Source: Darksidea phi
Lineage: Eukaryota; Ascomycota; Dothideomycetes; Pleosporales; Lentitheciaceae
NCBI GenBank assembly: GCA_030770425.1
Contig: JASJFT010000030.1
Location: 62,001 to 126,000, forward strand
Direction: 5' to 3'
Length of the DNA: 64,000 nt
The notes under the pieces were generated by a model, which saw only the letters and a program-made list of their open reading frames with translations, was not told the DNA's origin and ran no database searches. The translations under genes and the position numbers were made by a program. Below, piece by piece: positions 35,322 through 62,938 of the stretch. The stretch's first letter is position 1, and each line of letters starts with the position of its first letter.

Positions 35322-37260
35322 ATGGACCGCGACGAGAAGATCGTCGAGACCAACGACCCTGCCTTCCACCAGGACGAGAAGGTCGCTGCCCCCAACCACG
35401 ACGAGAAAGTCGTCGAGGACAAGGCCGGCCCTGCTGATGCTACCCGCCGCGCCAGCTCCGTCGTCGCCGACGTCGCCGTTCACAACCCTCTCAAGGTGCG
35501 TTCAATTCCATTTACCTCACTGACAGTTGTTCGTGCGATGCATGAATGGATGGCCTGGCTAACAAACCCCGCAGCGTCTATCCCTCGAGGCCGTCACCAC
35601 AGATGCCGCCACTTTTGCCGAGGCCAACGGCATGGCCGACAAGGTCACTCTGTTCACCAAGGCCGTGCTCGTGGCACGTGATCCAGACAACTTTGAGAGC
35701 TTGACCGACTTGACCGAGGACGAGCGTGCCGCTCTCATCTACGAGCGCGACCACAAATGGCACGGTCCCAAGATGTTCTGGTACTCGATTGGTCTTTGTG
35801 CCATTGGTGCTGCCACTCAAGGTTGGGATCAGACCGGTTTCAACGGTGTCAACTTGGGTTTCCCCCAGGAGTTTGGCCTCTCCGAGCGCGGTATCGAAGG
35901 TCGATGGATCATTGGTCTCACCAACGCCATCATCTTCTTGACTGCTGGTTTGATCGGTGCTTGGATTGTCGACCCTCTCAACCACTACCTCGGTCGACGG
36001 GGTGAGATTTTCGTCACCCCCCTCTGCCTGACCGCACCCCCCATCGGCTCTGGATTTGCGAGGACCTAGGAGGAACTTTTCGCTGTTCGTTTCGTCATGG
36101 GTATTGGAATCGGTGCAAAGAACGCTACCGTGCCCATCTTCTCCGCCGAAATGGCCCCAGCTCGTATCCGCGGTGCCTTGGTAATGTTCTGGTAGCTGTG
36201 GGTCGTTAGCGGTATCTTCCTCGATTTCTGCGCCAACGTTATTGTCAAAGATGTCGGTGACATCGCCTGGCGTCTGGAGCTCGGTTCTGCCTTCATCCCT
36301 TCATTCCTCCTCGGTGCTGGTATCTACTTCTGCCCCGAGTCCCCGCGTTGGTTGATGAAGCACAGCAAGATCACAAAGGGCTTTCGATCCATAGACCGCC
36401 TGCGCGCCCACCCCATCATCGCTGCCCGTGATTAATATTACTCATACATCATCTACACCGAGGAGATGAAGGTCGCCGGTGGCCAGGGATACTTCCGCCG
36501 TTTGGCCGACTGCTTCACCGTCCCTCGCATTCGTCGCGCCAACTACGGAGCTTCAACCGCCATGATTCCCCAGCAGATGTGTGTATCAACATCATTTCCT
36601 TCTACAGCTCCAGCATCTTCACCGACGCCGGTTTCAGCAAGAACCAAGCTCTGTTCGCCTCCCTCGGATACGGTGCCCTTAAGGTCGTCTTCACCATCCC
36701 CATCCTCTTCCTCATCGACACCAAGGGCCGAAGGACGCTGACGCTCATCACGTTCCCCTTCATGTGTATTTTCTTGCTCGCAACCAGTCTCTCCACGCTC
36801 ACATATGCCGACGTGCCTAAAGAGTTGCTTACCACAACTCAAGCCAGCACTAGGGTTGGTCCCATTGTTCTCTTCATCTACCTCTTCACCATCGCCTACT
36901 CGCTCGGTGAAGGACCCGTGGCCTTCAGTACTCCGCCGAGGTCTTCCCCACCATCCAGCGTGAGCAGGGCATGGCCGGAGCCGTTTTCATCAACAACACC
37001 TTTGCCGGTATTTTGTCCCTCACCTTCCCCCCCATGGTGGACGCCATGACGCAGGTCGGCGCCTTTTCCTTCTACGCCGGCCTGAATTTGATTGCATGGG
37101 GCATCATCTTCTGCTTCTTGCGCGAGACCAAGCAGCTCACTCTCGAGGAGCTGGACCGTAAGTTTTTCCCCGAACATATATCAATTTTGGGATTCGGTGC
37201 TAACCCAATGAAACATAGATCTTCTCCGTCCCCACCAAGCAGGTCAGTATTCCGAATCTC
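35322..37260 (+). pseudogene. MFS sugar (inositol/polyol-like) transporter pseudogene
   Basis: From ATG 35322 an exon to 35495 and a second from 35575 encode an acidic N-terminus and the first helices of an SP-family sugar transporter (WDQTGFNGVNLGFPQEFGL, LGRRGEIF). TAG codons break the frame at 36067 and in the FW-stop-LWVVSG helix, and TAA at RD-stop-YYSY. Single-base losses shift frame near 36575 (after QQMC) and near 36930 (after EGPVAF). Every helix block is otherwise still in order: [47 protein letters not shown] and LTLEELD. The mutation mix (stops plus indels) suggests simple loss of selection. The splice acceptor before the last small exon is also altered. Confidence 0.85.
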
Positions 37261-37319
37261 CTCGAAAGGGAGCAGGAGTCTGACCGATGCGCCGTATGAA
37301 CAAGCTCGCCCGTGAAGTC

Positions 37320-37825: not shown

Positions 37826-37869
37826 TCAGCCTCGGGAGCGTAGAACACGATGTGACGCACATACCGCAA

Positions 37870-38090
37870 CGCCTAGGTATCGGTTCTCGAACCAAGTCCC
37901 TCCAACATCCTTGTTCTCCTCGTAGATTACAAAGTCGATCAACTCCTGCAGGTCGAGGTTGACTCTCATGTCGTGAGCGAGGGTCAAACCGGACATGCCC
38001 GCTCCGATAAACATGACACGGAGCGTACGGGATGCGAAAGTTGTCTGGGGATTCACCGAAATTGAATTGGAAGGATGCCTGTTCGATGCA
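37870..38090 (-). pseudogene. Baeyer-Villiger monooxygenase N-terminal fragment
   Basis: The minus strand encodes LRVMFIGAGMSGLTLAHD (GxGxxG FAD-binding motif, codons near 38005-37990), then DFVIYEENKDVGGTWFENRY, the GGTW(x)NRY signature just before the BVMO fingerprint. Where family members go on with PG(V/C)xCD the frame reads LGVAVC and then ends within about 15 codons at 37826. No remaining 450 residues are found. It is a truncated relic of a class B flavin monooxygenase adjoining the live biosynthetic genes. Upstream codons in the same frame show no family resemblance. Confidence 0.65.
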
Positions 38091-38099
38091 TTATGCTGC

Positions 38100-39110
38100 T
38101 GCTGAGGAGTCGTTGGGATTGACCTCGTCTGCGAAGACGAAATGAGATAACAGTTCTTGAAAACGAAACGCCATGCTTCGCACATTTGACTTTTTGTGAG
38201 TGGAATTGCTGTCGAATAAGCATTCTCGGAGACTTGGTCTAGAGTTCCTCCGGTAGTAGTGCTTCGCGCGCATACCAAACGCGAAGGCCGAGAGTCTTCC
38301 GTTCTAGTAGTGAGTACAGCGTACATAAGGTCGGAAAATCTCCGAGCGTAAGACGTGGCACAGCGATAATCGCATGATTGCGGGCGGTACGGATCTCGGT
38401 TCGTCCCAAGCTGGAACGATGATCCATTACTCCTACAAGGAATCATCATGACCTCCGGCCGGAGTGACCACGGACAAGAAGACGGCGCTGCGTGTATCAC
38501 CACTCGGATCCAAAGCTTCTTGGGACAGGAAGCAGACGTCGACATTGCAGATCTAGAACGAGTCGGCTATGTCAATGCATACATGGTAGAAAGCATCGAC
38601 CATCTCGCGAATCGAAAGGTCACCTCGCAAAAGCCGCCGGTGGACAAGCCCTCACTTTGCATGACAGCGTAGATTCCGGTCATCCGATGCGTCGGACTGG
38701 ATAAATCAATTTCATTTTGGCTCTCCTTTGGTAGCCGTACTGACCAGCTGGACTGATCAACACTGGCCATGACCAACAGCATCAAGGAGCTAGACCATTA
38801 ATAGCACTGCGTCTAAGGCCGGGGAAAGACTCTGTCACGATCCCTAAACCCTTCCAGTCATTTTCAACTTTGCAGCCACTTATGTCGATGAGCTTATATA
38901 TTTTATTAGATAGGTAGGTACGTAAAGAGCGATAGATAATTTGAGGTGCGCTTAAAAAAGGGCTCGGATTCGGAATTAGTACAAGATACGCTTAAAATAG
39001 GGCTTCGACTTAGATTTAGTCGATGTTAATTGCTCGTAAGTATCCCTTTAAGTTAATTAGTATATAGTGACTAACTGCTTTCAAACTTATACTATTCATA
39101 TCGAAGAACT
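38100..39110. other. Intergenic between BVMO relic and glycosyltransferase
   Basis: No supported gene. A plus-strand frame at 38448-38672 was considered and rejected. 38880-39090 is mildly AT-rich. Confidence 0.3.
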
Positions 39111-40376
39111 CTAGACTTCTAGTAAACCCTTCCTATATGTTTTATCAGGTCGTGGTGCTTTAACGTATGCGATTGCATCCCTCGTTTGCCTGAAGTTCTC
39201 GCACCCATAGCGGAATAGCTCAGCGAATGTTCCCTTCTTACAGTCATTGCCGTCTTGATCCTCATCCCAAAGCTCTCCCAACTCCTTGTCGTGGGTTAAA
39301 GCCTTTCCACGAAAGACCTTTTGCATACTCGATCGGGACAGCAGACGCCAAACTAATCGCTCAGCATGTCCATAGTTTTCGCCTGTTGTGTTACCATCAA
39401 CCGGCAGTGCGAAGAGATCAAACATCCTCTGGCCGCAACCTTTGAATCCTAGAGTTGTCTCAGCCCCCCAGGTCTCTTCCAAACCGTCCCAAAGGAGCAC
39501 CTTGCTCGCCCAGTAGTCGACAGCACTAAAGCCATCACCCGCATCTTCGAGGAGGCAGAGGCGGTTCCAACACATGACCTGGGTGACGTATTCGTCCACG
39601 AGTGCAGCATCTTGGCTAATACCCCACTGGAATTTCTGTGCTCGCTCGAGGTCCAATGGCTGCTCAGCGACAATCTTCATCAAGGGGTTCTTCATGAGGC
39701 CAGCGGAGTTGGTGTGGCCTTCCCATAGATGGCAGAAAAGTTTATGCCTGGTTAAAGTCATCGTCAGTGGAGACTCTCTTGATGCTGATTTACGGGAGAG
39801 CAATTACCATCGATGGACGAATGGGTTTCCCTTCCTGGCAGATACAAAGTGATTGCCAATATGAGTGCCATACACCCATGGAGCCGCGATCTCGTAGGGA
39901 GTGCTTGGGTCCTCCAGCTTCGCCCAACAAATGCGATCGATACTCCGAATTAACAGGATGCCCACGTCTAGGAAGACGCCCCCATGTGCATACAAGCAAG
40001 CTCCACGGAGCATATCGGCACTGTGTGGCCCTACATGAGGGCCATCCATCGTTCCGTTTACGAAGGAATCTGGTAAAACCGCCTCAGGAACATATTTCAG
40101 AAAGTAGTTGTTCGAGTCTTTAGTGCTGTCCAGTACGCGAACAGTCCAACCATCATAGACGTGCATGCGGACCCAGGCACAGACATTTCTCTGACACCAT
40201 GGCGGCATAGAACGTATCCCCGAATGCCAGAAGGCCCAGATGTTCTTTTCCGATGTCACCGAGCGGAAGGTACTGAGGCTCTCGAGGATTTCTTCATCGC
40301 TTCGTTTATCTCGAGCCTCGACAAACGAAACTTGGTCGCGGTATGCGGGAGGGATCTCAAATTTCTGAGGCAACAT
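39111..40376 (-). CDS. Caps_synth/GT32-like glycosyltransferase
   Basis: Exons 40376-39808 and 39747-39111 give 401 residues; the 60-bp intron splits a Trp codon. The N-terminus carries KNIWAFWHSGIRSMPPW, the typical start of the fold, then the nucleotide-sugar site HSADMLRGACLYAHGGVFLD. This has the conserved D-xxR-xxxLY-x-GGV-x-LD pattern, with LDVG where DxD enzymes have a second Asp. Fungal proteins of this type are annotated as capsular polysaccharide synthesis proteins or GT32-like. In this context it may put a sugar on the cluster product, but it could instead be a neighbour acting in the Golgi. No signal anchor is evident. TATATAAG on its strand 77 bp upstream suggests an active promoter. 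Confidence 0.78.
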
Positions 40377-40452
40377 GATAGTCAACGATTCAGCCAGCGA
40401 AAGGGATCTCGGACCGTCAATGCAACGTGAGCTGAGTCGAGAGCATTGGCTG

Positions 40453-40460
40453 CTTATATA
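40453..40460 (-). promoter_or_regulatory. TATA box of the glycosyltransferase gene
   Basis: TATATAAG on the minus strand, 77-84 bp before the ATG at 40376. A CCAAT pentamer follows at 40445-40449 on the same strand. Confidence 0.5.
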
Positions 40461-40479
40461 GGAATGTTTGCTATAGTAC

Positions 40480-41995
40480 AAAATATAGATTAATCTATTA
40501 GGCTGTTTACTAAGTACCTACCAGATTGCTAATAAATAATTAAATCTATTAATAGATTAGGATCTAACTAGCTTAAATAGTTAATTTATAGTTACTAAAA
40601 AGAGCTTTAGTATTATATACTTTATTATATATCTAGCTAATCTAGTCTAAAGTATATATAATTTATAATTTTATTAAACTTATATAAATAAGTAGAGATA
40701 TATTTTTATTTTTATAAATTATTATTAATATATATATTCTAATATTCTTTTAATATATTTAAAGTTAGTTTATTATATTTATAAACTAATTATTAAACTA
40801 TTTATAAATTTTAAAATATAAAGAAGATTAAAGAAATAAAGATAAAAATAATAAAATAATAAAATTATAATAAAAAAAGAGAAATAGTTATTAATATTTT
40901 ATAATAATTACTTAGTATTAATATAGTAAAAATTATTATAATATACTAATTCTTTTTATACTTAGTTAATTAGTAAGATTAAATAAGAATATATAATAGA
41001 ATATTATATAAAAGAATTTATATAATAATTTAGACTTTAAAGTAATTATAAAAGATAATAAATAATAAACTATACTATATTTTATTTAAATATTTTCTTT
41101 TTTAAGAGCTTAGACTACTATTTAATATAATATAATATTAGCTTTTAAACTAGTTATATTTTTTATAATTTTAATTATTTTATTAAATTTTAATATTTTA
41201 ATATCTTATATAATAGTATAAATAGTAATTATATAATAATAATAATAAGATAATTTAATTCGTATTTCTTAGTTTATATCCCTTATAGTTCTCCTCTTCT
41301 ATATTCTATCCCCTTTCTCTAGATCGTATATTAAGGCTCGTATCGAATAAAGCTAGTATTAACTACCTACTATTCTACGGGCCGATATTAAGCGTTCTAC
41401 TCTTTTTATATATAGTTAAAATTTTAGTACTAGTCTTTAGATATATATAGTTTATTATTAAGTAGAAAAACTTCTCTATAATAATATAGTTACGTAATAT
41501 AGCTTTTCCTTAGAAAAAAAAAAGATAATTTATACTAGATTACTTCTTAGTTCTCTACTTACTAGTAGTTTCTCTAGTTAAATATTCTTATTATTCTTTA
41601 TTTTATCTATTTTTATAAATTTCTTTATATTTAATTTTTTATATTATTATTTATATTATATCTATTATAAATACTAGCTTTATCTTTTATATTTTTTTTT
41701 CTTTAAGAAAAAGCTATATTACGTAACTATATTATTAAAAAGGAGTTTTTCTACTTAATAATAAACTATATATATCTAAAGACTAGTATTAATTTTTTAT
41801 TATTATTATAAAACTATATAACTAATTTAATATTAATAATAAATATTATAATTATTTTATTAAAAAAATAATAAAATTATTATTAATAATAGTAGTATTA
41901 TAGATCTTTAAACTAGTTTAGTTTTTACTTCTTTAATTACTAGCTAAAATTATACCTCTAAACTAGCTATATATAGTTAGACGTAGGTAATATAA
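40480..41995. repeat. RIP-like AT-rich island in a divergent promoter
   Basis: About 1.5 kb of almost pure A/T with very many TA dinucleotides and stops in all frames, typical of a RIP-mutated repeat. It lies between the divergently transcribed glycosyltransferase and the first P450. The inverted repeat at 41427-41790 sits inside it. Confidence 0.75.
41427..41790. mobile_element. AT-rich element with about 95-bp inverted arms
   Basis: The left arm (41427-41525) includes ACTAGTCTTTAGATATATAT and AGTTACGTAATATAGCTTTT. The right arm (41693-41790) is its reverse complement with about five mismatches, around a 165-bp centre. It is probably a RIP-altered MITE or the ends of a DNA transposon. Confidence 0.7.
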
Positions 41996-42374
41996 GCGCT
42001 AGCAGGGGGTTAAGATTAGGTGGCGTCTCTATATAGATTTGACCTTCTAAGCAGCGGGGTTTTGCTGACAGCTTGGAACCCGATTAGGCAGGTACTGGAG
42101 CCTCTGATCCGCGTACATGCAGGAGAGCCTATTCCTGATGATCCTTCGGGTTACCCCTCCAAAAGACTCGTCATCTGCTGCAAGCAACGATTCAGCGCTA
42201 GACCTATAGCGCAGAAGACTCCTGCTCTTGTCCTCCGCTGCAGTCAGCATTCTAGCATCGACTGAATAGCGCAGAAGACTGCTTGTGCACCAAGTATTCG
42301 TGCCTTACTCCCATCTACTTCTGCTATTACTTTTGCGTTCTCGGATTGTAGTTTGGTTGTGGTCTCAGGCGGTC

Positions 42375-44114
42375 ATGTCGACCGGCACTGCAACTACCCA
42401 GGGTGTGCTCACCTCTACACCGTTTGCAAGGCTTGCCATTACTTTCACAGTCCTCATCGCCACCTCATACTTTGGACGCATCTTGTATAATGCCTTCCTC
42501 GGCCCGCTCAGCAAATTTCCAGGCCCTAAACTTCGAGCAGTGAGTAAGGTCCCTGGGCTGTATACCACAATCACCGGCCGGGATGCCTTTGTTCGCTCAG
42601 CACTCCACGAGAAATATGGGCCCGTTGTTCGTGTCAATCCCACGGAGCTATCATTCAACGGCGGCGCCGAGGCTTGGGAAGCAATATACAGCTTCAAGAA
42701 GCCAAAGCCGGTTCGAGATCCCCAATTCTATGCTGTTGGCGTCAATGGTTGTCCAGATGTGGTCACCGCCGATGAAGAAAACCACTCAAGGCAACGGAAA
42801 ATTCTGTCTACTGGTTTTAGTGACCAAGCGATGAAGGGATACGAACCACTGTTGAAGTCATGGGCTCTGAAGATGATCACGGAGATGTCGAAGCTGGCCA
42901 GCAAGGGCGGCAAAGTCGACATGCTCAAGTATCTCAACTGCACCACGTTCGATATCATGGGTGAGTGGTATACGCTCGAAGAATAGGTCATAGTCTCATT
43001 GTTTCCAGGGGACCTAGCGTTCGGCGAAGGCTTGGGAATGCTCGAAGACGGCGAGCTCTCACCGTGGGTGCAAACTATCTTCGCTGGATTCAAAGCTGGG
43101 ACGTTTTGGCGCTGTGTGATGCAGTACTCGGCGATTACTAGCTGGTTGGTCGGAAAGCTCCTTTTCAACAGCAAGCAGGTCCGTGTGAAGCAGTGGGAGA
43201 ACTTCGAGTATTGTCAGAGTCGCATGGATAAAAGGCTTGCTCGCGAACCTGCGCATTCTGATCTTTGGTCGAGGATACTATCCAAGTCCGATAGCGCTGA
43301 GGGTTTGAGTCGAGATGAATACCATTCGAATGCTGTCACGTTCATGGTGGCTGGTGAGCGGGCTCGAGTCTGGGCTATGCGCTTTTCTTACTTGCTGACC
43401 GCGTAGTACAGGGACCGAGACTACTGCTACGGCCCTTAGTGGTTTGATCTACTTTCTCCACCAGGTCGACAACAGGCATGCTCTAAACAAGCTGAAAGCA
43501 GAAGTCCGAGGCAGGTTTTCCAGCTTTGAAGACATCACCTTAGAGAGCCTGGCCCGTTTAGAGTACATGCACGCTATCATCCAGGAAGGACTCCGGATGT
43601 ACCCACCCGTAGGTATTCTTAAACTCCAACAGCAGCGGGAATTGACCAAATGCCGTAGGCTCCGAGTCAACTTCCACGACGAACACCTTCCGGAGGTATG
43701 ATAATCTGCGGCCAATTCATACCGGGCAATATCACTATCGACGTACATCCCTTGGCTACATTCACGTCGCCGACACACTTCAAGAACCCGCAGAAATTTC
43801 GACCAGAGCGGTGGCTTGGTGATCCTGAGTATAAGGATGATCATTTGGATGCAGTGGAGCCATTCTCGTATGGTCCTCAGAACTGTTTAGGCAAAGTGGG
43901 ATAATAATCTATCTTTTGACTATGGAAGCGTGCTGACAGATATATCTAGAGCCTCGCCTGGCATGAAATGCGACTGCTCCTGGCAGCTCTCATCCTCAGC
44001 TTCGACGTTGAACTTGCAGCGGAAAGCAAAGATTGGATCGATCAGAAGATCTACGTGTTGTGGGAGAAGAAGCCACTCATGTGCACACTGAGACGAGTCT
44101 CCAAATCTCCCTAG
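42375..44114 (+). CDS. Cytochrome P450, TRI11/CYP65-like (P450-A)
   Basis: Five exons (42375-42960, 43009-43353, 43412-43608, 43659-43895, 43950-44114) give 509 residues without a stop; all introns are GT-AG, 48-58 bp. A membrane anchor (FARLAITFTVLIATSYFG) is followed by the usual FPGPKLRAVSKVP start. Landmarks are complete: I-helix VAGTETTAT, K-helix EGLR, PRRTPSGG, FRPERW and heme loop FSYGPQNCLGK with Cys. The overall pattern resembles the TRI11 (isotrichodermin C-15 hydroxylase)/CYP65 group that hydroxylates terpenoids and polyketides in the ER. It is convergent with the next P450, with only 5 bp between the stops. Substrate unknown. Confidence 0.92.
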
Positions 44115-44119
44115 ATAGG

Positions 44120-45843
44120 TCAAGAGTTTCCTCCGCGCTTTCGAATACGCATCCTAGCACCGGGATCGGCAAGTCGAACGATCTCGTGCTTGATGTCTTG
44201 GGGTGGATCATCACCAGGAACGTACTCGAAGTCGTACTCTAAGAGTAAAATGCATAGCGCAATCTTTATTTCATTCGAAGCAAAGAATCGGCCTGGGCAG
44301 GCATGCTCGCCTTGTTTGGTCACGTCAGAAATTGTAGTAAAAATCTAGGGGGGAAGCAACACTACCGAATCCAAAGCCCATTTGATCAGCCGAAGGAGTG
44401 CTGAATTGGTGTTGATTTTGTTCTCCTGGTCGTTCTCGTAGTTTTGCGAATCGTCTCATGTCGAACGTTTCGGCATTTGGGAAGTGCTCCGAGGAGTGAG
44501 CCCAGTCGTTCATGACCATCAATGTGCTACCCTTGGGAATCACAGTGCCGTCGGACAGTACGACTGGAGCTTTAGCAAACCGTAACATGGAGGCTATAAA
44601 AAACGGATTAGTCCTTATTTCGTGGATAGAAGTGCGAGGATCCTTACTGGCGAGTAGGTCCCTCACTCTCTGACATTCCCTCATGAAGCTGTCCAGCAAC
44701 CTCATATCCTGCAGTGCTTGCTTTGTCCATCCTCTATCGTCAAGAACGCGGCGGCAATCTTCTCGCAGTGGTTCGATCAGCTCTGGCATGTCACACAGCT
44801 GCAGCAGGCACATCGTCATCGTTTCGGAGCTCAGGTGAATAGCGGCGAGGCTGAAAGAAAGTTGGGCAGCAGCGTAGTCTATTTTTCGCCCTCTTGCACA
44901 TTCCACCATCCAGCCGATCGCATCAGAGGCTTTTGCCGATCCCTCGCCCTCTGAAGAGCTAGCCTGCATCTGAGCTTTCCTCCGATCGACGACTGGCTGG
45001 ATGAGTACCTGTGCTCTCTTGTAATAATGCCTTGCTTGTGTGCAATTTTTGGAAAACCAATGGACGATAGGCCTAACCAGTGGATGCTGTGAACGAAGCT
45101 CGCTAATAGCCTCGAAACTGCTATAGGTGTAGTTCTTGGTGATATCTAGCCAGTCTTGGTTGCGGCAGAGCTCAAGCCCAAGGAAGACCCGAGAGGAGAG
45201 TCCTGCAACTAGCGATCAGCGGAATTGGGAGTAGAATGACGTGAGCATGTTCCGTACGAGCAATGATATCCTGGACGTCCGATTTGATTACATGAGTCTG
45301 CCATTCCTTACTTTCTCCAAACATGTCGCGGTACGTCAACTGCGTCTCTTCAACCAGGCCTAGATCACGCAATCAGAGACCAGCACATTCAGCCGAAGAG
45401 AAATGTATGAGGGTGGTATGAACGTTACCTGTGGTAATCAGACCCAAGCTTTGCGTAAGCTTCTTCCGAACAACTTCTTGAATGAAGGTATCATTTTCCA
45501 GAATTTCTCGAAATGGCTGGAGACCTGGATATGAGGTGAAACTGTCCCGAGCGTGGGCGTCGTTGAAGCTGAGGTCTGGATGGTTCTTGAGTTCTGTCGC
45601 AAATCGATTCGGGACTACTATCTTGAAGTTCGTCCCGGTCTGGACCTGGAAGCAGCTCTGGAACTTCTTGCCAAGCTCAAGCAGTGCTCGGCCATTCTGT
45701 AGGTACTCGTTGCGATCAGCGGAGAGTACAGGTATTGTTGCGTAAGGTTTCTTGTTGTTCTGGCTGTAAAAGAGCCAGATCACGGGTATTGTTACTCCAA
45801 GAACAAGTGCGGTCCAGCCAGGCAAGAGGCCGTGATACTCCAT
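44120..45843 (-). CDS. Cytochrome P450, CYP503-like (P450-B)
   Basis: Exons 45843-45429, 45359-45258, 45202-44648, 44593-44366 and 44310-44120 give 496 residues. The ATG at 45843 precedes a hydrophobic anchor (WTALVLGVTIPVIWLFY). Motifs: RLSSRVFLGLELCRN, I-helix FSLAAIHLSSET, K-helix ECQR, DMRRF and heme loop FGFGEHACPGRFF. This set is that of the fungal CYP503 group (ent-kaurene oxidase P450-4, GA14 synthase P450-1), whose members make successive oxidations on diterpenes. The I-helix carries AAIH in place of the usual (A/G)Gx(D/E)T, as is normal in this group. Three introns sit just before conserved motifs. Likely a terpenoid oxidase; substrate unknown. Confidence 0.92.
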
Positions 45844-45869
45844 GGCAGTCGTGCGGGACTGTGTAGAAA

Positions 45870-46500
45870 ATAGATAATAAGAATAAAGAAGATATCAGAA
45901 AATAGTCGATTGATTGCTTAATTATTTTGTAGGACCTAGCTATCCACTAGAACCAATCCATCGCCCCCGTTTCCTAGTAGTTTTTTTTATAGGAATATAA
46001 TATTTATAGAAGTTGTATATTAGTAAATAAATATATAATAAGCTTAGCTAGCTTATATATATAAAAACTTAGATTTTTTACTTTATTACTTCTATTAAAT
46101 AATAGTAAAATATAGATTATAATAAGTCTTAATTAGTAATTATATAAGCTCTTAAATAGATAAAATATATATTTTAGACAGCTTTATAAGCTACTTTATT
46201 AATAATAGAATATATATTATAGTTTAATTATATAATTAATTCTAATTAACTTTTTTTATTTTATAATATCTTTTAATCTCTATTTAATTATAATTATAGA
46301 TAGAATTCTATAATAATATTCTTTATTATAGTTATAATAGTATAGTTACAAGTCTATTTTAATAGACTAGATAGAGCAACTTATAAGATAGTTATTAAGT
46401 AGGTTTAACGAGTTAAAGGATTGTATAAAGCTAAAATATAATATTAGTAACGTCGCGATTAGCGTCTTCTTTAATCAGAAGGATTGCCGCGCCTGGCTAA
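45870..46500. repeat. AT-rich island upstream of P450-B
   Basis: About 600 bp of TA-rich sequence with no frames, like the other RIP-affected blocks. It separates the start of P450-B from the end of the UbiA gene. 46500-46785 is of normal composition and empty. Confidence 0.7.
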
Positions 46501-46785
46501 TATGCTATCTTTATGTATATTTACGGATAAGTTGTTTTAGGGTTCAGCCTGGGGTTTGGATCTGCCAATCCATCTTCCTCGCTAGTGTACTCGACCTCGT
46601 GATTCACTTGAAAAGGATGCAAACCCTTGCAGGTCATCACGTTGTGTTGCATTCACCGCATAATCTCTTACAAGTAGTTTAGGAGGAAGTAAGCCTTAAA
46701 ATCTCACTTATTGGGGCTATCCTATTCGAGAACCAACCTGCTTGTTTGAGCCTAGCAAAAACCACTCGCACGAGATTATGCGGTA

Positions 46786-47724
46786 CTATGTACGTGCCCC
46801 AAGACTTGCCAGCCATACCGGCAGCAATCCAACGAGGGTAGCTAAACCCCATGCATACGTGGCGGAACGTCGCTTATGTAGCGCAAGAGCGCTGAAAGCT
46901 CCCCAGAAGACGGTGGATCGAACGACGGATAGTACGGCACTTCCACCACCAAGAAGCGTGATAAACAAATCGCCCATGATTGTACTCCCGCCCAAGAAGA
47001 TCAAGGTAGGACGAACACCAAATGCGGTAGCCAAAGTCTTGACATTGTTCTGTTCATCTTCTTGGATATCTCGCACATCTGAAATTGACTCCCAAAGGAA
47101 GTCATAAGTGATTGTGTACATCAAGACTCGAAAGTGCTCCGCGCTTGAAGCATTCTCCGGATGAAGCATGGTTCCGCGAAGATACAACACGACTGCGGTG
47201 ACGTCCATGAGCCCGATGCATGTTGCACCAAAGAGGGATTTGAAGGGCCCGAGGAAGTACTTGAGCTTGACCGTGGATATGCTCCCGGTTTCGCGCGAGT
47301 ACACGGGGATCAGTGGCATCGCGTGTACGACGGCGAACAAGGGGACGCCGAGAAGTCGAAGAAGTGCCAAGAGACCACAATGCATTGTGCCGTAAACGAC
47401 AAGAGCAACGAAAGGGCTGGCAAAGACGACAATAGTCATGAGCCAAGTTTTCCTCGTCTGCCGGGGGAGGTCGGCGGCCTTGTCCATGACTGCATCAGAA
47501 AGTCAGCTTCGATTCTGGACGGTGTTTGACGGCGATATTGGCTTACCGTCGATCAGAACGTGAAGAGCGAAAAGTAGCACAAGTATTGGAGTATCGAGGG
47601 GCTGTTCATCTTCAAGCGTCACTCGCATCGCGCTTACTGCAGGTGGGATGTGCATCGCTCCATTGATGACGGGAAGCAGGAAGCTTGCTCCCACGATCGA
47701 CCGCGTAAGCTCTGGTTGAGACAT
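46786..47724 (-). CDS. UbiA-superfamily prenyltransferase or terpene cyclase
   Basis: Exons 47724-47547 and 47489-46786 give 293 residues, usual for the family. Both Asp-rich motifs are present: DVMDKAAD (DxxDxxxD), created only when the 57-bp intron is removed because its first Asp codon spans the junction, and DVRDIQED in the second half. About seven or eight hydrophobic helices surround them ([35 protein letters not shown]). UbiA proteins bind a prenyl diphosphate through Mg2+ in the membrane. In fungi some prenylate aromatic cores of meroterpenoids (Pyr6-type) and others are terpene cyclases (Fma-TC of fumagillin, EriG of erinacine). Which applies here is not decided by the sequence. Confidence 0.87.
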
Positions 47725-48007
47725 GCTGTTGGCCGGACGTCGACAGTGACAATAGAAGGTCTTCCGTTGTGGAGGATGACGAATTGATCCAAAGGATTTC
47801 TCCGGTAGTAGATCTGTACCTACTAATAAGCAAAAGTGATGAGCAGAACAGTAGTGCCTTCGTGTCACATGCACTAGCAAGGCCCCACTTCTGCGAGGCA
47901 GGTACAGGGTGGCGACATGAGCGGGCTATTCGCGCGAGTTGCTTACAGTCACATGACAGAAGTCTGTTAACCAAGCGCCCCACTAAAACGCGACGCGTAT
48001 CAACACC
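47725..48007. promoter_or_regulatory. Left half of the UbiA/toroid divergent promoter
   Basis: Upstream DNA of the UbiA gene. UbiA (minus) and the toroid-protein gene (plus) start 1.2 kb apart and diverge. No TATA box is clear. A MITE and an AT-rich block fill the middle of the interval. Confidence 0.4.
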
Positions 48008-48216
48008 TACCGTAAAATCTCAGCTATTTGGCCAAACGCTAGCAGGGTATATTTGAGCCTCACTCTTATCGGGTTCTATCTATTGGATCTAAGACCTACC
48101 TTATCATGCACAGCCCCCTAATACGATCCGTGCGTTATCTAGGCATGGCTAAACCCTAACGGGTGATAGACCCGATGCCTACTAGCGTTTGGCCAAATAG
48201 CTAAGATTTTACGGTA
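48008..48216. mobile_element. 209-bp MITE with 40-bp terminal inverted repeats
   Basis: The left end reads TACCGTAAAATCTCAGCTAT, going on to TTGGCCAAACGCTAGCAGG. The right end is its reverse complement with two C/T changes. The outer TA on both sides suits a TA duplication as in Tc1/mariner relatives. It is non-coding and is inserted between two divergent biosynthetic genes. It is unrelated to the foldback element at 12094. Confidence 0.87.
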
Positions 48217-48545
48217 AATTAGAGCTATCTATACTATACTCCTATAATACTTTTTTAGTATAGAAATTAATAGAAATCGTCGTCTTAATAGAGAGCTATC
48301 TATTAACGTATATAATAGTATTATTTAAAATCTAAGACTAGTATAGCTATAAAAGAGCTTATAGTTAAGTTTAATAATTATTATATATTAAACTATATAT
48401 AATGCCCTTTATAGATATAATAAAATAAATAATAATATCTTATAAAAGAAATAGAAACCTTTTATATAGGATATTACTATTATAATATATAGCTTATATC
48501 CTACTTTTCCTATCCTAGTAGTATAATATTAGTAAGTAAACGTCC
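48217..48545. repeat. AT-rich island next to the MITE
   Basis: About 320 bp of TA-rich, frame-free DNA directly abutting the MITE. RIP-like. The following 380 bp up to the toroid gene is normal and is its likely promoter. Confidence 0.65.
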
Positions 48546-48923
48546 CATAAGAGGTAGGATTTACGCTAATAGCCCGCTTATGTCACCCCCTGTAAAGACA
48601 CCGGAGAGTAACCTTATCTTACGCTTCGGCCCGGACCCAAATCCTAAAAGCCCAAGAACGACATGTAAGACCGCAGATGACAATTCCTGCGACGAGATAT
48701 TACTAATGCATAAAGACTGCAGGATCAGCTTGGCCCCACAGTCAGCAGCCACTGGTGATCCTTCGTGTTGTTTGGCAACGAAGCCCCCTACCATGGTGGC
48801 GACGGATATCAGTCAGCTTGCGGGATGTGAAGAACGTCTGTACGGCTTCTTGGTACGTATCAGGAATTTTAATTTACCATTACCACGAGCATTTGCGATC
48901 GTTTCATTCAATCAAGACCATCA

Positions 48924-50020
48924 TGTTGAATCTCGTAGACGTAGATGGTGCACTTTATAAGAGCGAAGAGTGGCTCGAGACCAACAAAAAGACATTCCTT
49001 TCTGAGACAGAAACCGGCGTCTCGTTCAAAGACAACTTCGCCGATCTGCTTGTATTGGAGCTGTCTAACAGATGGTGAATAATAATCTCCCAGTTTCAGT
49101 CGGGAGCGTTCCAATAACAGATAGATCTCAGGGACTATGTAGATCTTCGAGTACCAGAAAAACGATGGCATTACTTTGCTGGCAAGTGGTAGCCTCTGAC
49201 GACTTACCATATTGGTACTGACTTTGCGATAGTCAAGCCGGTCATTGTACCAGAAGATTACCCCGAAGACAACGACACCAATGCTGTCGCCTTTTCCATC
49301 TTGAAGCCAACCGATTCGAGAGCTAAGGTATTAATTGACGAAATCTTAGCGTGTAAGAACGCGGATGGTATCGTACAAGTAACAAGACTCCCGAGACTTT
49401 CATGATGTACTGAGCTCACAGACTATCAGGTTCACCTGGACCCAAATCGGCCAAGGATAGCCCCTGAAGTCAGTGCCAACATTCTCTCGCTCTTCTACAG
49501 CTATGGCCGCGGCCACGAAGTTCAAGAGTCTCTGAGCTACCTGCAGAAAGCAATGGCCCTGGAGGAGTACCAAGAGTCGCGATACTATTTCCTCCCAGAA
49601 CCGCTGTTCTTCTACACCTGGCGCCTCCTATGCATCGCTTCAGGTTCAGCTCTCGGAACAATCGACAATCAGCGCTTGCCCAAGGAGCTGCATACGCTAA
49701 GAGATCATTTGATCAGACGTGTGAGTGCGCGTATAGGTACTGCAAAGGACAATGCGTTGTGTCCTGCAGTACGTATTTTGATCTGTCACTCGCTGGGAAT
49801 TAAGAACGACGTTGATGTCCAGGTTTTGCTGGACTTACAAGAGGACGATGGCAGCTTCGGGAAGGCCTGGTACGTTAGGTACGGCTCAAATGGGATCAGG
49901 ATATCTCATCGAGCTTTCGCTGTCGTGGTTGCTATCGTGGCTCTACGGAGATTTAAACAGCACATGGTCGGGACGAAAACGGCAGTAGTGAATGGGGTCA
50001 ATGGCACAACGGCTCACTGA
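48924..50020 (+). CDS. Alpha/alpha-toroid terpene-cyclase-like protein (possible frameshift)
   Basis: The ATG at 48924 opens [17 protein letters not shown], vaguely like HAD motif I. An unclear intron (about 49047-49120) leads to [16 protein letters not shown]; then [14 protein letters not shown] lies one base out of frame near 49195. From there a clean frame with one intron (49379-49429) reads [27 protein letters not shown] and [12 protein letters not shown], then [17 protein letters not shown], ending at 50020. QEDDGSFG resembles the QW motif of squalene/terpene cyclases, and the helical pattern suits an alpha-toroid (class II terpene cyclase-like) domain. No DxDD or DxDTT acid motif is visible. 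It may be an active unusual cyclase, a partner protein, or a freshly broken gene. Confidence 0.6.
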
Positions 50021-50104
50021 ATGTATATACGGCGGTAAAGACATTGGGATGACGAATCAATCATTGATCTACCTCATCAATCTGTGTCCATCTTCTTCGT
50101 ATCT

Positions 50105-51010
50105 CTACTCTATCCAGCGAAGGAACATATCTCTTGAGAGTTCTTCTGAGTACCCAGCATAGCTCGCCTCCCCTTTCATATACGTCTTCGAGTCGCCAGC
50201 ACCATACGACCAAGAAAGGATGTGTATCTTCCGAGGGTCACGTGAAGGGTGCTCGGAGAAAAACCTCCTCATACGCTCATTTTTGAGCGAAGGAAAGTTT
50301 TCGGCATTCTTGACAGGCGCGTAGAACGCTACTCGGGGGATATGGCCCGTTTCAGGAACGATTGTGACGCCAAAGGTTTGCATCGGGTGCGTATTATCGC
50401 TAATGATTTGAACATCTGCTTCAGATAGAGGCGTTGATCCAGCCAAAGCGACGTATCTCGCAGCTCGTTCGGCAGTCAAGCCTCCCGGAAGCAAGAAGTA
50501 GACGTTCATACTCCGATTAGCGTAGTCAACCGCCGCAAAGTTCACGTGTTCGAGACCCGCAGCCTGGAGGTCGGGAAGTCGGGCAGCCACGGGGGCTGGC
50601 AAGCCATGTTTACACAGGATCTCCTGGATGGGTTGCAGGCGACGGAAGTAGATCCAGTTCTTTGCTATTCCTCGGCTAGGGTCAAAGTCGCACCATTGCT
50701 CTGCGTCCTCCTGTGAACTCCATGACCTAACCAGCTTCGCGAGTTCGTCGTCGATACCAATCCAACCGGCACTGGCTAAGATTGCTGTAGTATCGATCCG
50801 TTTGCCATGGAAAGCGAGGCGAAAATTGACCACATCCGCAGGTTTGCTCGTGCAGCGTAGCCAGACATATGAATCATCAAGGTACTCGTCAAAAGCTTCT
50901 AGGATCTGCTCTGTCACCTTGCTTGAGTACGGCGCATCGAGCGAGTGGCAGAGCGTGGAGAGCTCGGACTGAAAGGTGGAGCGGTCGAATTTTTCGGCGG
51001 TGGCGGCCAT
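50105..51010 (-). CDS. ABBA prenyltransferase, NphB/CloQ (Orf2) type
   Basis: A single exon of 301 codons, the typical size of this family (about 300). Matching segments are VWLRCTSKPADVVNFRLAF near residue 50, WCDFDPSRGIAKNWIYFRR, HVNFAAVDYANRSMNVYFLL, FGVTIVPETGHIPRVAFYAP and the C-terminal HILSWSYGAG. These are the beta-strands lining the barrel of the CloQ/NphB enzymes, which move a prenyl group onto an aromatic substrate without a DDxxD motif and often without Mg2+. Fungal members (PtfAt, PtfBf, PtfSs) prenylate 2,7-dihydroxynaphthalene. It is not the larger DMATS-type (about 430 aa). It ends 84 bp from the convergent toroid gene. The aromatic acceptor here is unknown. Confidence 0.88.
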   Translation of the reverse strand: MAATAEKFDRSTFQSELSTLCHSLDAPYSSKVTEQILEAFDEYLDDSYVWLRCTSKPADVVNFRLAFHGKRIDTTAILASAGWIGIDDELAKLVRSWSSQEDAEQWCDFDPSRGIAKNWIYFRRLQPIQEILCKHGLPAPVAARLPDLQAAGLEHVNFAAVDYANRSMNVYFLLPGGLTAERAARYVALAGSTPLSEADVQIISDNTHPMQTFGVTIVPETGHIPRVAFYAPVKNAENFPSLKNERMRRFFSEHPSRDPRKIHILSWSYGAGDSKTYMKGEASYAGYSEELSRDMFLRWIE

Positions 51011-52343
51011 ATCGGGGCGTCTGGTATTTCAGAAGATGTTGTAGAATAGATCACGACAGTTGAAACAACGTGTTTGTAGAGATATCGAGAGGACTTAGTG
51101 CACGATTGAGAAGGTCAGGGTTCAAACGCACCCAGACCCAACCTACCTCTTTCTCACGCTTATCTTAGCATCTCAGCTACATATGCGGGGTTGAATCCTT
51201 CAGTTGGTTTTCGTTCAAGTTTCAAAAGCTAAAACCGCGCCAAACCAATTCCTACTTGTGGTGCGTCGTTAGCAACTCGTCATCGGCAGGGGTTAGGCGT
51301 CACCACAGTAAAGGTTATGCGTCACCACAACAAGGCGCGAAGTGGGTCCCTAAGCCATGCATTAGCCTACACCTAAATTAGGCTGGGGGCCGATAATCTG
51401 ACGGCTTTTATAATACGGTGCGTAAAGAAGGGGTCTATTCCCCTCTTCCCTCCTCTTATAAGGTTAGAGTATAAATACTCTCTACTCTTTAAATATTTAA
51501 TAGAGTAAATAAGCTATTATATAATAAAAAGTAATAATATTATTAATATTTTTCTTTACTTTTATAATTTTTTTTTTCTATTTTATATATAGAGAAAGTA
51601 TATAAAATAATTTTATTTTTTAATATATTTATATCTTATTTTCTACTTATATAATTTTTTATTATTATAAAGTATAAAAAATCTTTTAAAAAAATTTAAG
51701 TCTTTTCTCTCTTTTATATATATATTATTTATTTATAGTATATTAGTTAACTAAATTTACTCTATTTAGTAGAAATTTTAGTAAGAAGTATTTATACTTT
51801 TATTAGAAAGAGGAAATATTTTAGCCTTCTTCTTTATATATTAGATAAATAAATTATAAAATTATACGCTAATAATTTAGAATTAAAAATTAATAACGTA
51901 GCTTTAGAGGTAATAGAGAGGTTAAGCTTTACCTAAATAGGAAGTAATAGAATCTCTAGAGGTCGATTTTATTTCGCTTTTTGAGCGAGTTGGAGGCTAA
52001 TTGCTTGTGGATTTCAAATCAAGTAGAGCCTGAAAAAGCGGTGAAGAATAGCGGTGAAGAATCCTGCATACCCTTGCGTACCCTTTCTTTTATGAATTAT
52101 TGAGTGATCGTCGCAGGAATGGTCACCTGCGGAAACGCCCGGTCAACGAGTCACTTGACAGGCTTGGCACGCGCCTTCATGGATGTACTCTACCGGACGG
52201 AGTACCTTGCATCCGCTAAGCAAACTAATGTAGCCGGACAACTCCCGCTCGTTTAGACCCTACGCCCTTCTGAAATGGGCATACCATCATAGATCTACGC
52301 CACTACTTCATCAATTGACTTGTGTCTGTTTTCAAGTGTAACA
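51011..52343. other. Divergent promoter region of ABBA PT and FkbM genes, with AT-rich insert
   Basis: The two genes start 1.33 kb apart and point away from each other. 51390-51960 is an AT-rich, RIP-like block with T and TA runs. Near 51295-51330 the string GCGTCACCACA occurs twice, 25 bp apart. No core promoter element is certain. Confidence 0.6.
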
Positions 52344-53114
52344 ATGGGGAAGCAGTTAGTAGAGTTTGCACCCGGCTTCTCAGCGTACGCCGGAGGCGTC
52401 GAGGAAACGCGTTTCTTTTACCGGGAGATATTCCAGGACCATGCCTACGATGTTGCTGAACTTCCCGAAAATGCCTTCATCATTGACGCGGGCGCGAATG
52501 TCGGCATGTTTACACTCTACATGAAGAAGAAATATCCCTCCTCGACGATCCTAGCATTCGAGCCAGCCCCAGAGACCTTCAAGATGCTGAGCGAAAATGT
52601 CAAGCTCCACAAACTCGAAGGTGTGGAATTGCACGAGTGTGCATTGGGGGCGGAAGACACTACTCAAAAATTTACCTTCTATCCGACTGTTCCAGGAAAT
52701 TCAACGCTCGTACCTGAGGAGAAAGAGATAGTGAGAGAGGTCTTCCGCGAACTGAGCGACGACTGGGCCGACTCAGCAGAGAGGATGTACTCTACCTTAC
52801 AGGAGATGCCTGTACGCGTTCGTCCTTTGTCACACTTTCTTAATGGGCGCAAAGATCTTAAGAACATCGATATGCTCAAGGTCGACGTGGAAGGTGTCGA
52901 GCTGGAGACTCTACGTGCTCTTGAAGAAGTCCACTGGGCTCTGGTTTCCAACGTGGTGGTGGAAATCTGCGATCTACGCGAGGGACGACTGGATGCTTTA
53001 GAAAGTCTGTTGAGATCTAAAGGCTTCCGCCTAAGGACAGAAAGTCCGCCGTGGTCACCAAGCGAAGGGAAGATGTTTATGGTCATTGGTCACCGCGATG
53101 TAATTGCTGGTTAG
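52344..53114 (+). CDS. FkbM-family SAM-dependent methyltransferase
   Basis: Single exon of 256 codons. ATG 52344 is preferred over the TTG-opened upstream codons because the family starts here. SAM-binding motif I is IIDAGANVGMFTLYM, the acidic strand 2 is ILAFEPAPETF, and the later FkbM block is MLKVDVEGVELETLRAL with VVVEICD. FkbM-type enzymes O-methylate hydroxyls of natural products; one acts in the fumagillin pathway. No signal peptide. Likely O-methylation of the cluster product, by context. Intact. Confidence 0.9.
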   Translation: MGKQLVEFAPGFSAYAGGVEETRFFYREIFQDHAYDVAELPENAFIIDAGANVGMFTLYMKKKYPSSTILAFEPAPETFKMLSENVKLHKLEGVELHECALGAEDTTQKFTFYPTVPGNSTLVPEEKEIVREVFRELSDDWADSAERMYSTLQEMPVRVRPLSHFLNGRKDLKNIDMLKVDVEGVELETLRALEEVHWALVSNVVVEICDLREGRLDALESLLRSKGFRLRTESPPWSPSEGKMFMVIGHRDVIAG

Positions 53115-53806
53115 GTCCAACTACAAAGGTTTCGAAATGATCCCCTGGCATTGATAGCGATAGCTCAATGGCATTCTATATGGCTTTCACGAACAAACTC
53201 CCTCTTGCAACTATCGGTCTAGCCGCGCATATTCCAACTTCAAACAGCTACCCCAGAGATCAGTAACATGCCAACGGCTCATCTATCATGCAATTTGTAG
53301 AAGTAAAAGACGTGGGTGTGCAATTCGTAGTTGGATGTTGGCATTCGCTTCGGCCATGTGCGTGCAAGAACCGCTGTATCCAGGTCCAGCTGTTCACTGT
53401 GCATGTTGTACTTGAATTAGTCCTTCAAGCGTTATTTATCACGAATAAAGGCGAGCCAGGTAGTTCGCGCTGCGGAGAAAGGAAGGGGGAATTGACACAC
53501 CGACTCTGAAAGCACCAGTGAAGAGGAAGTGAAGTAGGTCAGGCCCTGGTAGACCATGGCACGCGTGTATGATTTGCGCCGAAGTGTTACTTATAGCTGT
53601 ATTCCTGATATATTGCTGGCTAAATATGCTTTTGGACGTCGGGGGCCGATGGAAAGCCAGTCTGGTTGACAAGATGGACCAACATATATCTATGGCATAC
53701 ATGCTTGCTACGCATCATCGATCCAAGCAACCTCGTTCACGGATATGGTAGATAACTTCCTCGCCTACCTCGTATGCCTAGGCCTCGAGATACGTAGCTT
53801 TTTTTT
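53115..53806. other. Intergenic, nothing recognised
   Basis: No feature supported between the convergent FkbM and P450-C genes. Several short frames carry no motif. Confidence 0.3.
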
Positions 53807-55600
53807 CTAGAGCTGTGAGGCTGTATACTTTCGGCGGCGTATTAGGATCTTCTTGCTATAGGCTGGTCCTATACCGTCGGCCGATACTAGGTTCGCGGGG
53901 CGGCCCTCCCCATCGAGCAGCTTCATTTCGTAGTTCAGCAGCAGATACGACAAGATAACCTTTATCTCGTTGTTGAGGAAGAAGCGGCCCGGGCATGCGT
54001 GGGGACCATGCCCGAAGGCAATCAGGTCGTGCTGGCCAATGCCGGTCTCGATAAAGGTATACTTGCCGCCAACGCTGTTGTCGCCGCGCAGCTTGAGGAA
54101 GCGGTTGCCGTCGAACTCTTCTGGGTTGCCCCAGCGCTCCGGGTCCATGGCCATGAAGTATGCAGGAACGGCGAAGTAGCAGCCCTTAGGTAGCACCGTG
54201 CCATCGTGCAGAGTGATATCCTGCATGACCTTACGCTCGAACGTCAGTAGGCCCAGCGGGTGGTAGCGCTGCGACTCCTTCATGAAGCTGTCTAGCTTGC
54301 GTAGCTTAGGCATGCTGGACTTCTTCAAGTAGCTCTCATTCTCGTTCGATAACACCTCCGTTATTTCGTCGCGGATAGGACCAATGTACTCCGGCCGCGC
54401 CAGCAGGTCGAAGATAATGTGCGTAGTCAGCATAGTGGTGTTGTGTATAGCCGCCGTCGACACCACCAGCTGCGTGTGCGCGTGGACCGTCAAATCGTTC
54501 TTCTTCTCCGGAGGCACGCTGTTAATGTGCCATGTCGTCAAATTGCTAGGCGCCTTGCCCTCGGCGATGAGTCGCAGCCGCTCGGGCACGATGCTTGCCA
54601 GGATCTTCTCCATCTGGTCTAGCGAGCGCTTAATGCCTCGCACTTCCTCCACCCAGTACTGGGCCAGCGGACGCAGCCAGGCCGGATAGCGTGAGATGGC
54701 CTCAATCGCCTTGAAGGCGACGAAAGTGAAGTCAATGATTGACTGGAGGTAGTCAGGGTTGCGGTTGAGTTCAGGGCCGGCGAAGACGCGGCCAGAGACG
54801 AGAGCGACAGCGCGCGTGAGGACATTGCCGAGAGCAATCTCCCTCCAGTCTGGATGTAGTAGCGATGTTGGTCAGCGAACTGAGTTTCTCTCGAGTTTTG
54901 CGTATACGGCACTCTATCTGCCTGTGAGTGCACGTTTAACTTACCATCGCATTCGCCAAGGCTGCTGTTGAAGGCGTACTCGGTCTCCTCGGAGATCTCC
55001 TTCATCAGGCTGCCGATATTTCGCGTCAGGTCGTGCTTGACGCAGTGGAGCAGGTGCTTAGGGTCGTGCCCAATAGATGTTGGGGTCAAGCGCGTGTATT
55101 GTGTAAAGAATCGCTAGCGGGTGTGTCAATTCGGCTCTGCAATCCCATGGCAGCCCAAGCTTGGTTCCATAGATAGCGCGCTCTGCCTTACATCCGTGTT
55201 CTTTGCCTCAAGGGAGACGAACTCCTCCGGGAGGTAGCATAGCTCGCTGATGAAGCGTTCAGGCAGGACCACGATCGTGCCGTGCCGCGCCTTCAGCTGC
55301 CAGAGCTGGCCGCGGTACTGTAGAAGATGGTCAGCCAAGGACTGATCATCATCTCAATTGATGCGTGTGCCAGCTTCCGACCTTCTCGCAGTTGATCGAA
55401 AGCGCATCTTGCAAACCACCGAGCTCGACCTGCCCTTTCTTGACTTGGGAGATGTCAACGAGCGGCACATCAACAAGTATCGGGGGGGCGTGTTCGCGGG
55501 GCAGTGCGAGGAAGTACGCGACCACCAGTGCCAGCGCGCTCACGAGGATGGCACTCAGCGTCTGGTGCTGCACCGCGTATGCGTGAAGTTGGTCTAGCAT
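53807..55600 (-). CDS. Cytochrome P450, CYP503-like (P450-C)
   Basis: Exons 55600-55382, 55317-55192, 55113-54945 and 54849-53807 give 518 residues. The ATG at 55600 is chosen because it directly precedes the anchor helix (LSAILVSALALVVAYFLAL). Motifs: RNIGSLMKEISEETEYAF, SGRVFAGPELNRNPDYLQ, I-helix VVSTAAIHNTTML, K-helix ESQR, FDGNRFLKLRG and heme loop FGHGPHACPGRFF. As with P450-B this is the gibberellin-type CYP503 pattern with AAIH in the I-helix. The pair differs clearly in length, introns and sequence, so it is not a recent duplicate. Probably a membrane-bound terpenoid oxidase of the same pathway. Intact. Confidence 0.93.
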
Positions 55601-55689: not shown

Positions 55690-56357
55690 GCTCAGTACTA
55701 AGATCCTAGCAAACCTATCCTATCGCTACTACTATTATATCTACTATCTTTAGAAATAGTTTATATCTTTATAAATAACTTATAGTATAGATAATCTAGT
55801 AAATATATTTATATTAATAATTTAATCTTTATAATAATATTTATCTACTAAGTAAAAACTTATTATATAATTATATAAGCTTATAAGTATTAATTTTAAG
55901 TAATTTTAAAGTAAGTATTTAAATTAGTATTTAAGATTATAAAAAGTAAAATTTAAACTATAAAAAAATAAGTATTATAGTATATAGGTTTATCGAAGAT
56001 AGAATAATAGAGCTTATAACTTATAGTTAAAGAGATAAAAGAAAGAGTTAATAGAAAAGATAACTAAATAATTAATTAAATTAAATTATTTCTTCTATCT
56101 ACTATATAATAGAATAGATAATAAGTTTTAGTAAAAATACTTTTAGATAATCTTCTCTTAAGCTCTAGCTTAATATTTTTCCGCTTATCTAAGTCTTTAA
56201 TACTCGATTAGACCTCTTTTATAACTACTATACTATAATAAAATAGTATATTAAAATATTATAATTTATTATAATAGTTTAGTACTAGTTATAAAGATTA
56301 GAGCTAAGTAAAAGAGCTATTTTTAAAGCTTAATAACTAACTCTATACTAGTCCTAT
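55690..56357. repeat. AT-rich RIP-like sequence flanking the retrotransposon
   Basis: TA-rich, stop-filled sequence between the last cluster gene and the first LTR. It probably belongs to an older degraded repeat. No partner identified. Confidence 0.65.
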
Positions 56358-56822
56358 TATTACGAACCAAATATATACTATAAAATAGTAATAAGAAGAG
56401 CTATCTAAGATTAAACCTATTACTAGCTTTAATATAGAATACGACGATTATAACTATAGTATAAATAATAATTAGTATAAATAGCTTTACTAAAAAGTTA
56501 TATAATAGATTTATATCTTAATAAGAATAGATCTAAAGATTATATAATAGCTTAGTAAATCTATTAGAATAGAGCTACGAAGTTATAGCTTAGTAGATCT
56601 ATAGAAATAAAGTTATAGATCTAAGAAAACTAAATTAATATATAATAACTATAAATTTTCTAGATAAGTCTTATTTCTATATAGTTAATTTAAATCTAGA
56701 TTAATCCTTACCTATTAACGTAATTAAACTATTATCTATTTATTCTAACTTCTTCTTTTCTATCTTAAGTATAAATCCTAAATAAGACTAAATAATCTAT
56801 TAGGTCTAGACCTCGTTTAATA
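56358..56822 (+). repeat. 5' LTR of Gypsy element 1
   Basis: 465 bp that match, after reverse-complementing, the repeat at 63005-63453. The matched start is TATTACGAACCAAAT and the matched end is CCTCGTTTAATA. The expected TG...CA ends have become TA...TA, as RIP would do. Confidence 0.82.
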
Positions 56823-62800: not shown

Positions 62801-62938
62801 AAGAGTAATACGTTCTTAAGTTTTATATAATATTATAATAGATAATAATAGCCTTTTAAGGTAGGGTCTTAATACTAATATAGTTAAATACTAGAACTAA
62901 AATAATCTCTAAGCTAAAGGTTTAGAGAGAGGAGATAG

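Follow-up and report, generated by a model that had tools for sequence, protein, structure and literature searches.

A predicted HAD-less AstC-type terpene cyclase is encoded with UbiA-like and ABBA prenyltransferases in Darksidea phi and other Dothideomycetes

Fungal terpene cyclases of the AstC/AacA/DrtB type (astellolide and other drimanes) carry a HAD-like domain. In the accessible part of PMC13244436, AsDMS, AstC, AacA, AncC, and DrtB are described as cyclase domains fused to HAD-like domains, and the accessible part of PMC12365925, which deals with HAD-fused enzymes, proposes that the fusion is derived from a stand-alone cyclase domain. Clusters that combine a UbiA-like prenyltransferase with a Pyr4-family terpene cyclase include the mos cluster, which lacks a polyketide synthase (PKS) (PMC11109268, from the portion available). 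Aromatic prenyltransferases of the ABBA fold include CloQ, NphB, and the fungal PtfAt group (PMC3227686, likewise in part). Here, we describe a gene group of Darksidea phi in which a stand-alone AstC-type cyclase, a UbiA-like protein, and an ABBA prenyltransferase are encoded together. The window, that is, the whole stretch of 64,000 nucleotides analyzed, covers positions 62,001 to 126,000 of contig JASJFT010000030.1 (C224 below; 322,758 bases) in a genome of 51.4 Mb in 477 contigs.

Genes were modeled from the listed open reading frames with a small script based on codon use and splice signals, and the cyclase and the ends of cytochromes P450 A and B were set by hand; the models are open by construction of the method, and the splice sites are predicted from the sequence. 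Families were assigned with Pfam and NCBIfam. The three different prenyl or terpene folds that the original prediction had recognized were found side by side as follows (window coordinates).

46786-47724, minus strand: UbiA-like membrane prenyltransferase, 293 amino acids, exons 47547-47724 and 46786-47489
48923-50020, plus strand: stand-alone class II terpene cyclase (AstC-type terpene-cyclase (TC) domain), 312 amino acids, four exons
49182-49232, plus strand: GC-AG intron of the cyclase gene
50105-51010, minus strand: CloQ/NphB-type (ABBA, Orf2) aromatic prenyltransferase, 301 amino acids, single exon

The toroid protein, which had been called terpene-cyclase-like and counted among the possible sources of the backbone, can be assigned more sharply. 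Judged by its sequence, it is a TC domain of the AstC/AsDMS family without the fused N-terminal HAD-like domain. Its family member P0021 matched AstC with an E-value of 5.7e-35, and the window cyclase shared 29% identity with AstC over 269 columns and 22% with AsDMS, a bacterial drimenol synthase (HAD-TC-beta) that is a fused cyclase-phosphatase. The acid/base motif DNDT (DxDT) lies at residues 80-83, with D80, D82, and T83 present. The partners N324 and Y361 of AstC are kept as N133 and Y169, the equivalent of Y448 is also kept, and the diphosphate ligand K314 is conserved as Arg. Because it is a domain of this family with the catalytic residues kept, the stand-alone cyclase itself is the likely scaffold former. 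A Pyr4-type or class I enzyme was rejected as an identity for the toroid protein, its best matches being AstC and AsDMS. In the fold search, the second-best family was that of MstE, a merosterolic acid synthase from the cyanobacterium Scytonema that is 11-12% identical in the aligned region, and the AstC structures 22ty and 22tz were not among the matches from entries up to April 2026. A scan of prokaryote genomes with the cyclase alignment gave 45 pattern matches, none of which was confirmed.

The cyclase gene looks broken to simple gene finding because of its GC-AG intron (GCAAGT...TAG), inside which an in-frame TAG lies at about 49190. For the same reason, the automatic model caught the last exon only, and the full model was built by hand from relatives. 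A pseudogene was rejected, as P0017, P0019, P0020, and P0021 read RW-x-YFA-V/I-KPVIV across the TAG site. The database models P0023, P0024, and P0030 have extra letters where the next cyclase intron sits.

The cyclase starts roughly at the start of the AstC cyclase domain, and no Pfam HAD match was found in its relatives P0017, P0018, and P0021 (296 to 358 residues). A match to PF28380 is precomputed for 15 of the 19 rows in the list of cyclase homologues, and this family gave no match in the Pfam copy scanned here. The same genome also encodes the following AstC-type cyclases.

C246:313518-317192: HAD-bearing AstC-type cyclase (L020)
C472:163238-166648: HAD-bearing AstC-type cyclase (L022)

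The former occupies one frame of 555 codons with a HAD match of 20.2 bits, below the cut-off of 26.4; the HAD match of the latter was 45.4 bits, over the cut-off, with adjoining HAD and cyclase frames taken as one gene. A third cyclase stretch of this genome lies on C26, close to an assembly gap. In a tree of 15 cyclase rows, the ten rows labeled HAD-less were set apart from the HAD-bearing rows with a branch support of 100/100, in a small, midpoint-rooted sample with long-branched HAD-bearing rows and with some HAD-less rows partial and labeled by kinship. Separately, the C246 protein reads DVDDT instead of DxDTT.

The larger exon of the UbiA-like gene matched PF01040 with an E-value of 6e-4 and 19.5 bits, below the curated cut-off of 34.2, and three relatives scored 10.2-16.7 bits, also below it. 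The DxxDxxxD motif occurs twice (IDVMDKAAD and SDVRDIQED); D62 and D66 were present in all 12 aligned rows reaching them, and D197, D200, and D204 in 16 of 16 rows. The Asn of the first NDxxD motif is replaced by Ile in P0001, P0002, and the window protein. A fold search with a middling model returned UbiA structures as the best matches, and a profile search of PDB with the UbiA-like alignment gave no match up to an E-value of 10. When the family was compared with six UbiA stretches of its own genome, the profile probability was 12.6% (0.1% for the cyclase family as a control). The UbiA-like protein is thus, in sequence terms, divergent, and its chemistry is unreadable from homology because it is distant from the UbiA stretches of its own genome and below the Pfam cut-off.

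The ABBA protein matched PF11468 with an E-value of 8e-63 (212.9 bits against a cut-off of 22), as the only match to this family listed for the genome, and was homologous to residues 11-294 of CloQ (8.5e-45). Among its 20 homologues, 17 were 63-97% identical, with 61-100% of the query covered, and the other three were 37-38% identical. A scan of prokaryote genomes with the ABBA alignment gave 14 pattern matches, with none confirmed. The kinship of the protein to CloQ and to the fungal PtfAt group points to a phenol as the putative acceptor. The identity was 95% to Trypethelium, 92% to Periconia (Pleosporales), and 65-71% to Zasmidium (relatives P0037, P0039, P0046, and P0048). Horizontal transfer of the ABBA gene between orders is a possible event in its history.

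To compare linkage in other fungi, the three homologue lists (16 UbiA-like, 19 cyclase, and 20 ABBA proteins) were matched by source and by the size of the longest contig, equal contig size serving as a proxy for the same contig and being backed by neighboring locus numbers. Eleven contigs were common to two or three lists. Those with sizes of 178121, 184638, and 6278 occurred in all three; 5846744, 5917, and 4114 in the UbiA-like and cyclase lists; and 98693, 2036352, 558098, 1992, and 1909 in the cyclase and ABBA lists. Eleven of the 19 cyclase rows sit on these contigs; of the other eight, seven come from contigs no longer than 2.5 kb, whereas the one from Trypethelium eluteriae lies on a contig of 21.8 kb. 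Neighboring locus numbers were found in the following assemblies.

Trypethelium subeluteriae: Q9165_006770 to 006772
Zasmidium cellare, first assembly: M409DRAFT_29807 to 29809
Zasmidium cellare, second assembly: PRZ48_012120 to 012121
Periconia macrospinosa: DM02DRAFT_569562 to 569563

The trio-linked assemblies span three Dothideomycetes orders, namely Mycosphaerellales, Pleosporales, and Trypetheliales, the last represented by Trypethelium. The co-occurrence search proposed with the original prediction therefore had a positive outcome: as read from contig sizes and consecutive locus numbers, the cyclase, UbiA-like, and ABBA genes recur together in Dothideomycetes.

Compared with the described systems, the window cyclase is like the AstC/AacA/DrtB-type enzymes in its cyclase domain, DxDT motif, and equivalents of N324, Y361, and Y448, whereas the HAD-like domain is theirs only and the window cyclase sits with two prenyltransferases. 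The mos-type clusters are alike in having a UbiA-like prenyltransferase and a terpene cyclase and no PKS; however, as far as the available part of PMC11109268 describes them, their cyclase is of the Pyr4 family instead of the AstC family, and the ABBA prenyltransferase is extra in the window. The ABBA protein is homologous to CloQ, NphB, and the PtfAt-type enzymes and, in the clade of the window, is linked to the cyclase and the UbiA-like protein; the distant members P0053-P0055 (the three at 37-38% identity) show no such linkage in the lists. Each fold is known, and among the matches listed from the literature searched, no paper described AstC-type cyclases that lack the HAD domain and are linked to UbiA-like and ABBA enzymes. 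The UbiA-like protein is 92% identical over its full length to a protein of Viridothelium virens named 'Prenyltransferase vviA' in UniRef; this suggests that a homologous gene has already been named, and a homologous cluster may already have been described. By title or abstract, no paper on vviA as a gene or on the trio was found among the matches listed, subscription journals being mostly outside the search, and none naming V. virens concerned such a cluster.

The other genes expected around the trio, namely three P450s, a FkbM methyltransferase, a glycosyltransferase, and a relic of a Baeyer-Villiger monooxygenase (BVMO), were all modeled with it at 37826-55600.

35322-37283, plus strand: left-hand neighbor, a major facilitator superfamily sugar transporter, splice model mechanical
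37826-38014, minus strand: flavin monooxygenase (BVMO) relic, 62 amino acids, start of the flavin adenine dinucleotide-binding region only
39111-40376, minus strand: Caps_synth-type glycosyltransferase, 401 amino acids, two exons
42375-44114, plus strand: cytochrome P450 (A), 509 amino acids, five exons
44120-45843, minus strand: cytochrome P450 (B), 498 amino acids, five exons
52344-53114, plus strand: FkbM-family methyltransferase, 256 amino acids
53807-55600, minus strand: cytochrome P450 (C), 518 amino acids, four exons

Eight enzyme genes with open models are packed in 17 kb (39.1-55.6 kb), bordered on the left by the transporter and on the right by an AT-rich desert; the BVMO piece is, from its predicted frame, the relic of a non-working gene. 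The FkbM methyltransferase matched only itself when searched against its own genome (E-value threshold of 0.001). AT-rich blocks with a GC content of 0.17-0.25 split or border the group at 40600-42200, 45900-46450, 48220-48530, 51460-51990, and 55700-64000, the last continuing to C224:146000. Their (CA+TG)/(AC+GT) ratio of 0.00-0.31, against 1.1-1.3 in gene-bearing stretches, is a bias like that of repeat-induced point mutation (RIP). On the right flank, no open frame of 100 codons was found in C224:126001-136000 and none of 120 codons in C224:136001-146000.

The genome-wide exon matches to the ketoacyl-synthase, polyprenyl-synthase, and Terpene_syn_C_2 families agreed with the earlier statement that no PKS, prenyl diphosphate synthase, or class I terpene synthase is present: among the matches listed, 0 of 104, 0 of 9, and 0 of 8, respectively, fell on C224. 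Because such matches exist in the genome and none of those listed lies on C224, prenyl diphosphate synthases and PKSs are, by these predictions, encoded elsewhere, with none seen beside the locus. Another terpenoid locus of the genome lies on contig C5 (113038-135548), where UbiA, Terpene_syn_C_2, and polyprenyl-synthase matches occur within about 22 kb.

These gene contents suggest that the group probably builds a terpene-decorated aromatic compound, and we think there is a good chance that the cyclase and the prenyltransferases jointly make one cyclized prenyl-aromatic. We infer the substrate, step order, acceptor, and membership of the tailoring genes as follows. The cyclase would bind farnesyl diphosphate (FPP), Asp82 protonating the terminal double bond with Asp80 as the base, and would give a drimane-like bicyclic (C15) diphosphate, which would retain its diphosphate in the absence of the HAD domain. 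One of the cluster prenyltransferases, UbiA-like or CloQ-type, would then alkylate an aromatic acceptor supplied by primary metabolism or another locus with the cyclized unit. The second would add a further prenyl unit or act at another position, and the P450s, FkbM methyltransferase, and glycosyltransferase would finish the molecule. The isolated AstC cyclase domain still forms drim-8-ene-11-yl diphosphate from FPP. An 8-ene with a diphosphate on C11 is allylic and is therefore a possible alkyl donor for a prenyltransferase. The order of cyclization before transfer is argued from this allylic diphosphate, the missing HAD domain, and the two adjacent prenyltransferases; it is a tentative choice, the reverse being nearly as likely. 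The full proposal, in which the absence of the phosphatase-like domain frees a ring-closed allylic diphosphate to be joined to the aromatic by a CloQ-type or UbiA-like enzyme, is rather doubtful.

Several observations weigh against this scheme. Compared with full-length AstC, the isolated TC domain has lower selectivity and gives some monophosphate, attributed to contaminants; the HAD domain thus matters to product choice. Some of the diphosphate contacts of AstC are altered in the window cyclase (K451 to Asn; T264, Q265, and A449 to Val, Pro, and Gly), although the K451 position is also Ser or Thr in the C246 and C26 relatives, and the structure model is weak around DxDT (residues 56-108 below a predicted local distance difference test score of 50). 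No partner of equal contig size was found for the UbiA-like rows of Viridothelium (242954), 108168, and 9448 or for the ABBA rows on 161787, 28272, 18775, 8471, and 5213, in a protein database clustered at 90% identity in which partners may hide inside clusters. In addition, the recurrence covers the trio only and has no bearing on the P450s, FkbM methyltransferase, or glycosyltransferase. As for order, fungi usually prenylate and then cyclize, according to the available part of PMC10882540, and PDB titles show structures of the single-domain class II cyclase MstE together with prenylated dihydroxybenzoates, in keeping with the opposite order. The UbiA-like or ABBA enzyme might first prenylate an aromatic acid or phenol, after which the cyclase would fold the chain on the aromatic, in the manner of cyanobacterial MstE, and the other prenyltransferase would add a second prenyl unit. 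However, the sequence and fold of the cyclase are nearer to AstC and AsDMS, which act on free FPP, and its equivalent of the diphosphate ligand K314 is a conservative Arg; we view this course as somewhat improbable.

UbiA-like terpene cyclases have been reported among fumagillin-type enzymes. The UbiA-like protein might itself be such a cyclase giving a terpenoid, with the ABBA enzyme decorating a separate aromatic and no single meroterpenoid being made; cyclizing UbiA enzymes are reported in the accessible part of PMC10175467, and the low profile probability and sub-threshold Pfam score leave the chemistry unreadable from homology. On the other hand, the recurring trio already has a class II cyclase, and both aspartate motifs are kept, a weak point as they serve either chemistry; we judge this reading quite unlikely. 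The original prediction of a new cluster making one product stands in that the folds are real and the trio recurs; given the named homologue at 92% identity, the cluster may not be new, and the P450s, FkbM methyltransferase, glycosyltransferase, and BVMO relic may or may not share one pathway with the trio. Compatibly with any of the above, the trio could cooperate while the P450s, FkbM methyltransferase, and glycosyltransferase are unrelated neighbors brought in by rearrangement in a repeat-rich region. AT-rich RIP-like blocks between several genes and conservation seen for the trio only favor this, whereas the flanking genes are all open, of tailoring type, and packed in the 17 kb between transporter and desert, which makes it a minority possibility. 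The BVMO relic and RIP-like blocks could also mark a decaying or silent cluster, but the eight open models and the full-length identities to relatives (92% in the UbiA-like protein and as much as 97% in the ABBA one) make this very unlikely.

If cyclization does precede transfer, the pathway would reverse the usual fungal meroterpenoid order and would offer new prenyl donors to those working with enzymes. The recurring HAD-less clade beside two unrelated prenyltransferases is a natural test of the purpose of the HAD-like domain, and the locus points to a terpene-aromatic product family missed by searches keyed on PKSs, nonribosomal peptide synthetases, or class I terpene synthases.

Apart from this gene group, a large NACHT-type nucleoside triphosphatase with a C-terminal CHAT domain (Pfam NACHT_N, NPHP3_N, and CHAT) is encoded at 28261-33225 on the minus strand and is a candidate for a role in fungal incompatibility or cell death.

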